Assembly: GCA_023480735.1 (NCBI GenBank)
Contig: JAMCXB010000037.1
Span: 1 to 59,451 of the forward strand
Origin: Bacteroidota bacterium
Lineage (GTDB): Bacteria > Bacteroidota > Ignavibacteria > Kryptoniales > JAKASW01
DNA length: 59,451 nucleotides
Direction of reading: 5' to 3'
The position numbers and the translations under genes are program-made. A model generated the notes under the pieces. It was not told the origin of the DNA and ran no database searches. It saw only the letters and a program-made list of their open reading frames with translations. Each line of letters starts with the position of its first letter. Position 1 is the first letter of the stretch. Positions 4,414 to 59,451 of the stretch are shown piece by piece.

Positions 4414-4498
4414 CGCTGGGGCGGGAGGACTCTCCCGAAGGGATCACTTTGCGAGAACCTCCGAATGTCCCGCAATGCGGGATACCTTACCACTCAGG
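4414..4498 (-). pseudogene. tRNA-Gln relic with palindromic insertions
   Basis: On the minus strand this repeats parts of the intact tRNA-Gln at 4748-4819. 4414-4432 equals 4746-4764 (19 bases: acceptor 3' strand and half of the T arm), 4455-4467 equals the next 13 bases, and the D-arm piece AGTGGTAAGG is shared. Between these blocks lie a 22-base insertion in the T loop (4433-4454, containing TCCCGAAGGGA) and, in place of the anticodon arm, the hairpin TCCCGCATTGCGGGA (4468-4482). The acceptor 5' strand is missing. It cannot fold into a working tRNA. The TGA stop of the neighbouring GIY-YIG gene lies inside it. Confidence 0.8.
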
Positions 4499-4742
4499 AA
4501 ACTCCGATAATCTTTCGAAATCTCTCGTTTCCCTTCAAACTCTTTAGCTCAAGTTCCCGTCTCATCGCCTCAGCTCTCGTTCCATATTTCTCAAAGTATA
4601 CCATCGACCAAGACCTCATTGCCTTCGTCGACTTAACTCTTCCTTCATTATGCCTTCTGAACCTGTCGTCAAGACTATTCGTCTGACCGATGTAAAACTT
4701 TCCGACTCTCAGACTCTTCAGCACATAAACGTAAAAGCCCAT
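4494..4742 (-). CDS. Small GIY-YIG nuclease-domain protein
   Basis: An 82-residue single-domain protein of the GIY-YIG superfamily, close to the UPF0213 group. The first strand is FYVYVLKS and the second KFYIGQTNSLDDRFRRHNEG, with the catalytic-type Arg and His; a C-terminal Glu lies in RELELKSLKG. GIY-YIG domains cut DNA in homing endonucleases and UvrC, but the task of these small free-standing versions is unknown. The chosen ATG is only six bases past the 3' end of tRNA-Gln; the frame extends through the tRNA to 4820 but that part is just translated tRNA. It lies between tRNA-Gln and a tRNA-Gln relic, so the unit looks like an inserted cassette. Confidence 0.85.
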   Translation of the reverse strand: MGFYVYVLKSLRVGKFYIGQTNSLDDRFRRHNEGRVKSTKAMRSWSMVYFEKYGTRAEAMRRELELKSLKGNERFRKIIGVS

Positions 4743-4747
4743 TTGCG

Positions 4748-4819
<72 letters not shown>

Positions 4820-57650: not shown

Positions 57651-58937
57651 TCAGTCCTCGTGTTCGTGTGTCGGTTCTTTGTCGACGACTTTTATTTCTG
57701 CATTGTCAACGATGTAATTGAACATCTCATTAAACAGCAACTTGTTCTTAACATCGTTGGAATTTTTGTAGAAATCAAGCAGTTTGTTCCGATCCATCCT
57801 GTATCTCGACGCCTCATCATCCGCTGTTCGCTCCAGTACCGCGTCGTCAACCTTCAATCCTTCCTTCTGGATGATCGCGGCGGCAAGGAGATTCCACTTC
57901 ACGGACCGAATCGCGGATTCTCTGTAGCGTTCCTTCACGAAGTTCTCATCGATTTCCTGGTTTTGGGACTCCTTTTTCAATTCTTCTATGAGATCGTTCA
58001 TGTATTCGTCGACCATGCTGTCAGGAACTTCAAAATCATTTGTCTTCAGCAGCTCCTCTGCGATCTTGCTTCGAAGCTCTTCTTCCGCCTTCTCTTCATA
58101 GTAATGCTCAAGTTCCCGTTCTATATCTTTCTTAAGCGCATCAAGACTCTCCATCTTTCCTCCGGAGACTTTCTTTGCAAAATCATCCGTGAGTTCAGGC
58201 ATCACATATTTCTCCATTTTCTTGACAAGCACCTTGAACGGTTTCTTACCGGCGGGCTCACTTTTCTTGCCGTAGGTTTCAAGTTCCATACTGAACTCAT
58301 CGCCGGGTTTACTCTTCATAAGCCTGTCCCGAATTTCAGTCAGTTCGGGCGCCTTGCTTCTAAGATCTATTTTATAGTTTTCCCTGCGCTGTCCTATCAA
58401 GGGGACGCCCTTTTCATCAATGACCTGAAGATCGACGGTGGCGACTCCCTTCCCGTTTTCCAGCGAATCCGCTTCCTGCAATTCCGAGTTTGCCTCCTGT
58501 ATGTGCATTAGCTCGTGGTCAACTGTCTCAGGGAGGATGCGGTACATCGACCGCTCAAGCTTCATTCCCTTGTAATCCCTAGGGTCAATTTCCGGAACGA
58601 CTTCATAGGTCAAACGAAAATGAAGGGGGTCTCCAATCTTTCTGGTGTCGAGATTGTAATCGACCACCCCCGCCACCTTCGTGTTCTCTTTCTCAAAGAT
58701 CCCCTTGACAATTTCATTCACTATATCGGGAATTGATTCGGATTCTATGTCCTCACCGTACCTTTTCTTCACGATGGCAAGAGGAGTTTTCCCTTTTCTA
58801 AAACCGGGTACGGCCGCATTTCTTTGAAATTCCGAATATGCGCTTTCGAATTTATTTTTGACCTGCTCATCTTCTGCCGTGGCAGTTACCTCAAGCTGCT
58901 TCTTTAATCCACCTAAATCTACGATCTTGTAATCCAC
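57651..58937 (-). CDS. tig: Trigger factor
   Basis: 428 residues. Ribosome-bound chaperone. The N-terminal ribosome-binding domain has the signature [21 protein letters not shown] (about 37-57). The middle part (about 150-245) stands where the FKBP-type prolyl isomerase domain should be but is shorter and keeps few of its motifs. The C-terminal chaperone arms (about 245-420) are present. It starts at GTG (58937) after AAAGGAG. tRNA-Leu lies 85 bases upstream on the same strand. Confidence 0.95.
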
Positions 58938-58958
58938 TTTTTCTCCTTTTGATTGATG

Positions 58959-59015
58959 TGCGAGAGAGGGGACTCGAACCCCTACGAGTTACCTCATCCC
59001 GCAAAACTCTTCTCG
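58959..59015 (-). pseudogene. 3' half of a split class II tRNA relic
   Basis: On the minus strand: right arm of a palindrome (GAAGAGTTTTGCGGGA, ending TGCGGGA), variable arm TGAG-GTAA-CTCG, a perfect T arm AGGGG-TTCGAGT-CCCCT (58983-58967), acceptor strand CTCTCGC (58966-58960) and discriminator A (58959). The acceptor strand pairs exactly with GCGAGAG at 59172-59166 on the other side of the tRNA-Leu gene. The D loop and anticodon arm are missing. Confidence 0.8.
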
Positions 59016-59021
59016 CCTTCG

Positions 59022-59103
59022 TGGGTAGAGGGGGAGTCGAACCCCCACGGGTTTCCCCACTAGCTCCTAAGGCTAGCGCGTCTGCCAGTTCCGCCATCTA
59101 CCC
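59022..59103 (-). tRNA. tRNA-Leu (anticodon TAG)
   Basis: 82 bases, class II, no encoded CCA. The acceptor stem is GGGTAGA/TCTACCC with discriminator A; the D arm contains TGGCAGAC; the anticodon stem is GCTAG..., with loop CTTAGGA giving TAG. The variable arm is TGGGGAAACCCG and the T arm GGGGG-TTCGACT-CCCCC. All stems pair. It sits inside the central break of a palindrome that itself interrupts another tRNA-like sequence (58959-59172). Confidence 0.94.
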
Positions 59104-59106
59104 GCT

Positions 59107-59172
59107 GAAGAGTTTTGCGGGACTCCCGATACATCTCTTCGAGATTATCGGGACAAATTCCGCCACTCTCGC
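59107..59172 (-). pseudogene. 5' half of the split class II tRNA relic, with palindromes
   Basis: On the minus strand: GCGAGAG (59172-59166) acceptor strand, then TGGCGGAATT as in leucine tRNAs. Then the 30-base palindrome TCCCGATA...TATCGGGA (around CTCGAAGAG) and the left arm TCCCGCAAAACTCTTC of a second palindrome, whose right arm lies at 59015-59000 beyond tRNA-Leu. Promoter boxes placed for a tRNA start lie just upstream (59182-59210), so this was once a working gene. Confidence 0.78.
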
Positions 59173-59181
59173 AGGTTATAA

Positions 59182-59210
59182 AATATAATCTTTGGAGGCC
59201 CAATCTTCAA
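59182..59210 (-). promoter_or_regulatory. Promoter of the tRNA relic/tRNA-Leu/tig transcript
   Basis: TTGAAG (59210-59205), 17 bp, TATATT (59187-59182). Transcription would begin two or three bases before the 5' end of the outer tRNA relic and continue through tRNA-Leu toward tig. Confidence 0.7.
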
Positions 59211-59258
59211 AGACACAAAGACACACGAACCGACGGTCGCAATCGTTTAGCGCTAAGT

Positions 59259-59313
59259 AACCTTGCGAAGGTTTTGCCCGAAGGGCTCCTTTGGAGATGA
59301 CCTTCGCAAGGTT
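59259..59313. repeat. Palindromic repeat, ACCTTGCGAAGGT type (copy 2)
   Basis: Perfect 14-base arms AACCTTGCGAAGGT (59259-59272) and ACCTTCGCAAGGTT (59300-59313). The 27-base loop holds a smaller palindrome GCCCGAAGGGC (59276-59286). The arms match copy 1 at 17329-17360. Confidence 0.85.
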
Positions 59314-59345
59314 CCAACTTGCTACCCCAAGTTCGACGGTAGTGG

Positions 59346-59369
59346 CGCAGAAAAAATATTTTTTCTGCG
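59346..59369. repeat. 24-bp perfect palindrome
   Basis: CGCAG, A6, TA, T6, CTGCG: a perfect palindrome with an A/T core that could end transcription from either side or bind a protein. No gene end is visible in the remaining 82 bases of the window. Apart from the repeats listed, 59214-59451 shows nothing I can call. Confidence 0.6.
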
Positions 59370-59451
59370 GATTCAGTTTGGACTGGGGGATTGGGGTTCA
59401 AAAGTCAATGTAGTGCCGACCTTGTTTATTGCAACGTGGTACAGGGATGTG

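Follow-up and report, generated by a model that had tools for sequence, protein, structure and literature searches.

A tRNA-Leu(UAG) gene between the halves of another

How does a complete tRNA-Leu gene come to lie between the two halves of another tRNA gene, and what has become of the gene that was split? This question is raised by a locus directly upstream of tig in a 59,451-nt stretch of DNA from a Bacteroidota bacterium, which was analyzed as a whole and is hereafter called the window. Its genome is designated G000, and G000 to G012 are 13 genomes of one uncultured genus. On the minus strand between positions 58959 and 59210, a promoter is followed by the 5′ part of an outer tRNA-Leu of class II, the inner tRNA-Leu(UAG), the outer 3′ half, and tig (Table 1). 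Spelled out, the string reads promoter, GCGAGAGTGGCGGAATTTG, a 30-nt palindrome, one base, the 16-nt arm TCCCGCAAAACTCTTC, AGC, the inner tRNA, 8 nt, the matching arm GAAGAGTTTTGCGGGA, TGAGGTAACTCGTAGGGGTTCGAGTCCCCTCTCTCGCA, and tig. The arms of the second hairpin are 94 nt apart, and the insert at tig amounts to 126 nt, i.e., the tRNA and its hairpin arms and nothing else. The first-pass annotation, made on the window alone, had the second palindrome opened exactly at its center, which is incorrect since the inner gene is off-center, with 3 nt on one side and 8 nt on the other. The 215-nt strand is predicted to fold with −107.7 kcal/mol (z = −6.5), and none of 200 shuffles did as well.

Table 1. 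Positions of the tig-linked nest and of a broken tRNA-Gln copy in the window
Feature	Position	Strand	Evidence or comparison
Broken tRNA-Gln copy	4415–4493	−	TATCCCGCATTGCGGGA replaces the anticodon arm; hairpin in the T loop
tig (trigger factor), downstream gene	57651–58937	−	ORF
Outer tRNA-Leu 3′ half: variable arm, T arm, acceptor 3′ strand	58959–58996	−	Compared with G002 and G004
Second hairpin, 3′ arm	58997–59012	−	100% complementary to 59107–59122
Inner tRNA-Leu(UAG), complete	59021–59103	−	ARAGORN; Rfam 56.8 bits
Second hairpin, 5′ arm, replacing the outer anticodon stem	59107–59122	−	100% complementary to 58997–59012; site from G004 vs. G002
First palindrome, within the outer D loop	59124–59153	−	At the position of 8 nt (GCAGACGC) in G002
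Outer tRNA-Leu 5′ part: GCGAGAG (acceptor 5′ strand) and start of the D arm	59154–59172	−	Same letters in G002 and in the intact G004 tRNA-Leu(UAG)
−10 box TATATT	59182–59187	−	17-nt spacer to the −35 box
−35 box TTGAAG of the shared promoter	59205–59210	−	TTGAA[GC]-17-TATATT at congeneric tig loci

The outer halves can be identified as a tRNA because the same sequence belongs to an intact tRNA-Leu(UAG) in G004, where ARAGORN finds an uninterrupted gene, GCGAGAGTGGCGGAATTTGGCAGACGCG-CTGGACTTAGGATCCAG-TGAGGAAACTCGTAGGGGTTCAAGTCCCCTCTCTCGCA, between the same promoter and tig. A relative with such an intact outer gene is what the first-pass annotation had recommended looking for. In G002, exactly the 17-nt anticodon arm of the G004 gene is exchanged for a TCCCGC…GCGGGA hairpin that holds the inner tRNA, and the overall identity to the window is 84% over the region. 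G000 has the same exchange, and 8 further nucleotides of the D loop are swapped for the first palindrome. Since G002 has no first palindrome, the two inserts are separate events. As judged from these alignments, zero-, one-, and two-insert states coexist within the genus, in agreement with the serial insertion, and with the substitution of palindromes for the outer middle, that had been proposed from the window. Pairing is complete in G000 and G002 alike, with 7/7 pairs in the acceptor stem and 5/5 in the T stem, as had been noted for the window, and 16/16 in the arms of the second palindrome (G-U counted). In both species, the insert resembles intervening sequences (IVS) in having palindromic arms that lengthen a host helix. 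The outer gene has the hairpin in place of a complete anticodon arm in both G000 and G002, and neither ARAGORN nor Rfam calls an outer tRNA in the window; of the two tRNAs for which covariance-model scoring had been suggested, only the inner one is recovered. The outer anticodon arm CTGGACTTAGGATCCAG is also found at the tig site in all five loci read from another family of the order (G013 to G017).

The inner gene forms a cloverleaf with a UAG anticodon and a class II variable arm, and its Rfam score compares with a cut-off of 29 bits, so it is as complete as first described. No other tRNA-Leu(UAG) is present among the 34 tRNAs that were identified in G000, a draft with 90% completeness, or among the 43 tRNA sequences (of 47 matches) that were read in G002. 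The cargo is a tRNA gene, as had been suggested, and it is of the same isoacceptor as the outer gene. Differences between the G000 and G002 copies are confined to the variable arm. A TTGAA[G/C]-17-TATATT promoter with the same spacer is found at 12 of the 13 congeneric tig loci (the G008 version has TTGAAC, and the G012 contig stops short of the site), which bears out the earlier view that the promoter boxes fit the outer tRNA. Since there is little space for a promoter of its own, the inner tRNA is most likely transcribed from the outer one.

All 13 congeneric genomes possess tig, with a tRNA-Leu(UAG) upstream in 13/13 loci. Outside the genus, this was also the case for 17 of the 19 class loci with the highest Tig scores, Tig matches being present in 113 of the 119 genomes of the class. 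Of the 13 congeneric genomes, 11 have the inner type (GGGTAGA...), among them the deep pair G005 and G011, and this type is also found upstream of tig in G021 (family f4), with 95% identity over the aligned part. The tig-linked tRNA-Leu(UAG) of G006 is of a third type, GGGCACG. Across the class, the acceptor stem of this gene varies, with GGGCACG, GCGAATG, GGGTAGA, and GCGAGAG all being represented (e.g., at loci L077, L132, L141, and L146), and this variety suggests recurrent replacement, or stem change, at the tig locus.

We also asked whether the palindromes recur. The first one has a single match in the G000 genome at up to 3 mismatches, and the arm of the second one is found outside the two nests at 4 places in 13 genomes, each at 1 mismatch. 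For these exact sequences, the idea that they are copies of a dispersed repeat is unsupported, and the many copies expected of a repeated mobile element were not found. TCCCG...CGGGA pairs number 5 in the window against 1.4 expected, a count reached by 1 of 100 shuffles. Upstream of the promoter, at 59259–59313, there is an intergenic series of short palindromes (AACCTTGCGAAGGTT, GCCCGAAGGGC, and neighbors). Over the whole window, Rfam reported no RNA other than tRNA above its cut-off, and in a search of five loci with E values up to 1, tRNA matches alone passed their cut-offs, with no intron above cut-off at the G000 or G002 locus.

Remnants of the outer tRNA and history of the nest

Remnants of the outer 5′ half were sought in nine leaders with neither nest nor intact outer gene (G012, whose contig is cut, was left out). 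The leaders from the closely related G009 and G003 align to it with p = 0.0002 and 0.0004, respectively (5,000 dinucleotide shuffles), and the aligned part includes letters of the D loop (GCAGAC in G009) as well as CCCGCA of the hairpin. Weak matches were seen in G007 and G001 (p = 0.02 and 0.04, uncorrected), and those in G005, G006, G008, G010, and G011 were not significant. Among the trailers of ten species without the nest (G004 was left out), a remnant of the outer 3′ half was detected in G007 (p = 0.009), with no significant match in G001, G003, G005, G006, and G008 to G012. Leader and trailer of G007 are predicted to pair with −33.1 kcal/mol, compared to −32.3 for the best of 1,000 shuffles. 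This pairing is weak in G009 (p = 0.02) and not significant in G003 (p = 0.068), G001, G005, G006, G008, G010, G011, and G012. Nesting thus predates the split between G000 and G002, and the remnants, which come from one lineage (G003/G009) plus G007, indicate that it probably extends to the G003/G009 lineage and possibly to G007.

In trees of Tig, ClpP, and ClpX, G004 grouped with G000 and G002, with a support of 38 for protein and of 80 and 73 for DNA (the DNA tree being without outgroup), and G005 and G011 were deepest in the genus (support 93, protein). A simple ladder, in which G004 would be sister to all other members of the genus, was rejected (AU p = 0.026), and a {G000,G002,G004} group as sister to the remaining genus was not (AU p = 0.051). 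With G004 placed there and the inner type present in 11 of 13 genomes, a single early insertion requires precise loss or local exchange in G004, so the history would have been either that or two nestings.

Hairpins and GIY-YIG nucleases at other tRNA genes

Hairpins at set places are also found in broken tRNA copies elsewhere in the genus. Our survey was limited to ~1 to 1.5 kb around tRNA genes, so the closeness of broken copies to intact genes is partly by construction. In G000, a palindrome replaces the anticodon arm in broken copies of tRNA-Val, tRNA-Gly, and tRNA-Gln (the last one in the window), and T-loop inserts after TTC, with nothing lost, are found in copies of tRNA-Leu(CAA), tRNA-Gly, tRNA-Gln, and the 3′ end of tmRNA. 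Four tandem tRNA-Gly copies, about 146 bp apart, directly precede an intact tRNA-Gly (L055 1094–1675, G000:C17), each with a hairpin at the anticodon-arm position and a double hairpin in the T loop. Immediately after a tmRNA gene (L126 1122–1485, G000:C25), and up to position 1560, the tmRNA 3′ end is present a second time, with this same double hairpin in its T loop. Three broken tRNA-Val copies lie around an intact tRNA-Val(GAC) (L028 1251–1950, G000:C36), where a GIY-YIG-like ORF, recognized by eye, comes after the intact gene; the 5′-most copy, which has D-loop hairpins, has counterparts with altered letters in G002 and G009.

Scanning tRNA neighborhoods in G000, G002, G004, and G007 with a filter that dropped the Gly copies yielded 20 non-redundant split copies, none of them from G002, in a design without shuffled control. 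By script labels, the insert is in the T loop in 7 (6 of which have lost 0 nt), in the anticodon arm in 6, in the anticodon loop in 1, near the D arm in 3, and in the variable region or spanning in 3. The anticodon arm and the T loop are recurrent sites, and 14 of these 20 inserts start with TC (again without shuffled control); their sequences differ, and no transposase is linked to them. Several fold no better than shuffles (Pro in G000, p = 0.18; Met in G004, p = 0.26 to 0.31). A fixed T-loop pattern had 6 matches in G000, 2 in G005, and 2 in G007, i.e., in 3 of 13 genomes, and its reverse had none. A near-identical pattern applied to 294 class genomes gave one additional match, in G211 (family f4). 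A stricter one, which missed the genus itself, had its sole match across the class in G214 (family f10), in an incomplete copy of tRNA-Ser next to the tRNA-Ser gene. By these patterns, the habit is concentrated in the genus, yet not confined to it. As far as its sequence tells, the outer tRNA-Leu conforms to this habit, and its peculiarity is the intact gene inside the hairpin. When 159 loci of five genomes were scanned for nests against 118 tRNA sequences, the Leu case (G000 and G002) was recovered and, less clearly, a Val case in G002, where an intact tRNA-Val is flanked by pieces of another Val copy, the 5′ one containing D-loop hairpins and the 3′ one a T-loop insert; these pieces could instead be two separate partial copies.

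Some broken copies are accompanied by nuclease genes. In the window at 4415–4819 on the minus strand, a tRNA-Gln (4747–4819) is followed by a GIY-YIG nuclease ORF (4494–4742, with a start codon position that we chose) and then by the broken tRNA-Gln copy. The ORF matches PF01541 with an E value of 9.9e-16, and the unit looks like a small mobile unit with borders made of tRNA sequence. By eye, G214 has a similar order of gene, nuclease, and copy. GIY-YIG-like frames, also identified by eye, adjoin copies of the tRNA-Ser 3′ end with T-loop hairpins in another species (L118, G005:C142) and in another family of the class (L333, G214:C182). No GIY-YIG frame was seen by eye at tig among frames of at least 30 aa in window 58930–59451, or upstream of tig in G002 among frames of at least 50 aa. 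A link between GIY-YIG nucleases and hairpin insertion is only suggestive. A process of the genus, perhaps connected to these nucleases, might disarm resident tRNA genes by swapping loops for hairpins at fixed sites and be able to carry, within the hairpin, a replacement tRNA of the same kind, either as a selfish activity or as a housekeeping one that renews essential tRNA genes in place; we regard this broader proposal as rather unlikely.

Explanations for the nested locus and related systems

Our favored explanation, which we hold to be probably correct, is gene succession by nesting, in which one tRNA-Leu(UAG) replaced another from within. The locus would have started as a promoter followed by an ordinary outer tRNA-Leu(UAG) and tig. 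The outer anticodon arm would then have been exchanged for the TCCCGC...GCGGGA hairpin with a complete tRNA-Leu(UAG) of a different sequence type at its tip, possibly by insertion into a hairpin tip, in DNA or RNA, and through the same hairpin-inserting process that affects other tRNA copies of the genus. Decoding would have passed to the inner tRNA, transcribed from the old promoter, and the old gene would remain as the paired leader and trailer of the new pre-tRNA, contributing its acceptor stem, its T arm, and a 16-bp extended anticodon stem. We infer that the outer fold keeps leader and trailer paired and that the inner tRNA is freed by RNase P and 3′ processing, with the halves staying unjoined. 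A second hairpin would later have entered the outer D loop in the lineage of the window, and flanking remnants of the outer gene would persist around the inner one in some of the other species. Those parts of this scenario that can be read from the sequences directly are the replaced arm, the complete isoacceptor inside, the extra D-loop insert in one species, and the low divergence of the outer halves.

This low divergence raises the possibility that the outer cloverleaf has been retained as a tRNA-like control or processing element, either for tig or for the inner pre-tRNA, which would be compatible with an origin by nesting but is in our estimation rather doubtful. Between G000 and G002, tig, clpP, and clpX differ at 185 of 424 fourfold sites (44%; JC distance 0.65), whereas the outer halves differ at only 2 of 59 positions, both in loops and with the stems intact (two leader bases are counted in and the D-loop stretch replaced in G000 is left out). 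The outer halves therefore look constrained despite the lost anticodon, as measured in one species pair, two sequences being insufficient to claim covariation. The outer 3′ half differs from that of G002 at 2 of 38 positions, and the same two sites separate G000 from the intact G004 gene. The hairpin arms differ at 2 of 32 positions (2 of 16 in the 3′ arm), each an A-U to G-U change that keeps the pairing. A control element would also fit the leader–trailer pairing in G007 and, weakly, in G009, as well as the recurrence of tRNA-Leu(UAG) upstream of tig in the genus and at most other loci examined. However, the promoter (3/36) and the spacer before tig (1/21) are about as conserved, so the constraint spans the entire leader, and part of it may correspond to a general leader function. 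In addition, 10 of the 13 genomes keep tig with neither nest nor intact outer tRNA, and the D loop is disrupted in G000.

Alternatively, the nest may be accidental, the outcome of a tandem duplication followed by deletion, in which an outer-inner-outer array lost the 3′ half of its first copy and the 5′ half of its last. In this genus, intact tRNA genes commonly have partial copies next to them, and the tRNA-Val locus of G002, with its 5′ piece upstream and 3′ piece downstream of an intact gene, could be such a case. At tig, however, the outer halves end exactly at the borders of the G004 anticodon arm and are joined to 16-nt arms that pair fully, which argues against this explanation since deletions would not create matching arms; we consider it improbable.

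That the outer halves are ligated after excision of the inner tRNA to give a second functional tRNA, in an intron-like manner, is very hard to sustain. The 16-bp helix could hold the halves together as in a nicked or split tRNA, but the anticodon arm is missing, and part of the D loop is replaced in G000. On inspection, no joining within the hairpin yields a Leu anticodon loop with U33, no cutting and joining of the arms restores the anticodon loop, and the stem letters differ from those of G004, which led us to reject an outer tRNA that is spliced. Finally, an assembly chimera, named at the outset as what might undo the observation, or a binning artifact, can practically be discounted: G000 is a 72-contig draft in which the locus lies 279 nt from a contig end, but G002 has the same arrangement inside a 204-kb contig, at 63.7 to 63.9 kb.

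How does the nested locus relate to known systems? IVS sit at the tips of hairpins in bacterial 23S rRNA. These are similar in that palindromic inserts extend the helix of a structural RNA and can carry cargo. At tig, in contrast, the insert lies in a tRNA whose anticodon arm it has replaced, and it carries another tRNA that would assume the function of the host. Archaeal and eukaryotic tRNA genes can contain introns, and bacterial tRNA-Leu(UAA) genes can contain group I introns. These too are inserts within the anticodon arm of a tRNA gene, whereas splicing could not rebuild the outer anticodon arm here, where Rfam has no intron above cut-off. Certain integrative elements regenerate the 3′ end of a tRNA. 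Elsewhere in G000, partial tRNA copies likewise flank inserted genes, some with GIY-YIG-like frames, in contrast to the 126-nt insert at tig with its tRNA and hairpin arms alone.

Repetitive hairpin-forming elements or palindromic repeats occur in sponge, fungal, and algal organelle genomes, where they are short and divergent, intergenic as well as in some rRNA genes, and sometimes in tandem (PMC2800124, PMC4524435, PMC7218506). Here, the setting is a bacterial chromosome with set places inside tRNA copies, and the available portions of those reports mention no tRNA cargo. A tRNA-Sec gene nested in selB is likewise a tRNA gene inside another gene, with the difference that selB is protein coding (PMC8124441). 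In the literature that we searched, with most subscription journals outside its scope, we found no example of a tRNA whose anticodon arm contains a second tRNA gene. The locus is best read as a form of hairpin insertion into RNA genes, with a tRNA cargo that we did not find described there.

In-place replacement of an essential tRNA gene can usually be seen merely before and after the event, and what looks like an intermediate is preserved here in two species, while relatives show the uninterrupted state as well as eroded ones. The hairpins that many tRNA copies carry at fixed positions suggest a bacterial insertion habit of which the same literature yielded no description. In practice, nested loci can mislead tRNA annotation. 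They also resemble the tRNA scaffolds that engineers build by placing RNA into the anticodon arm.
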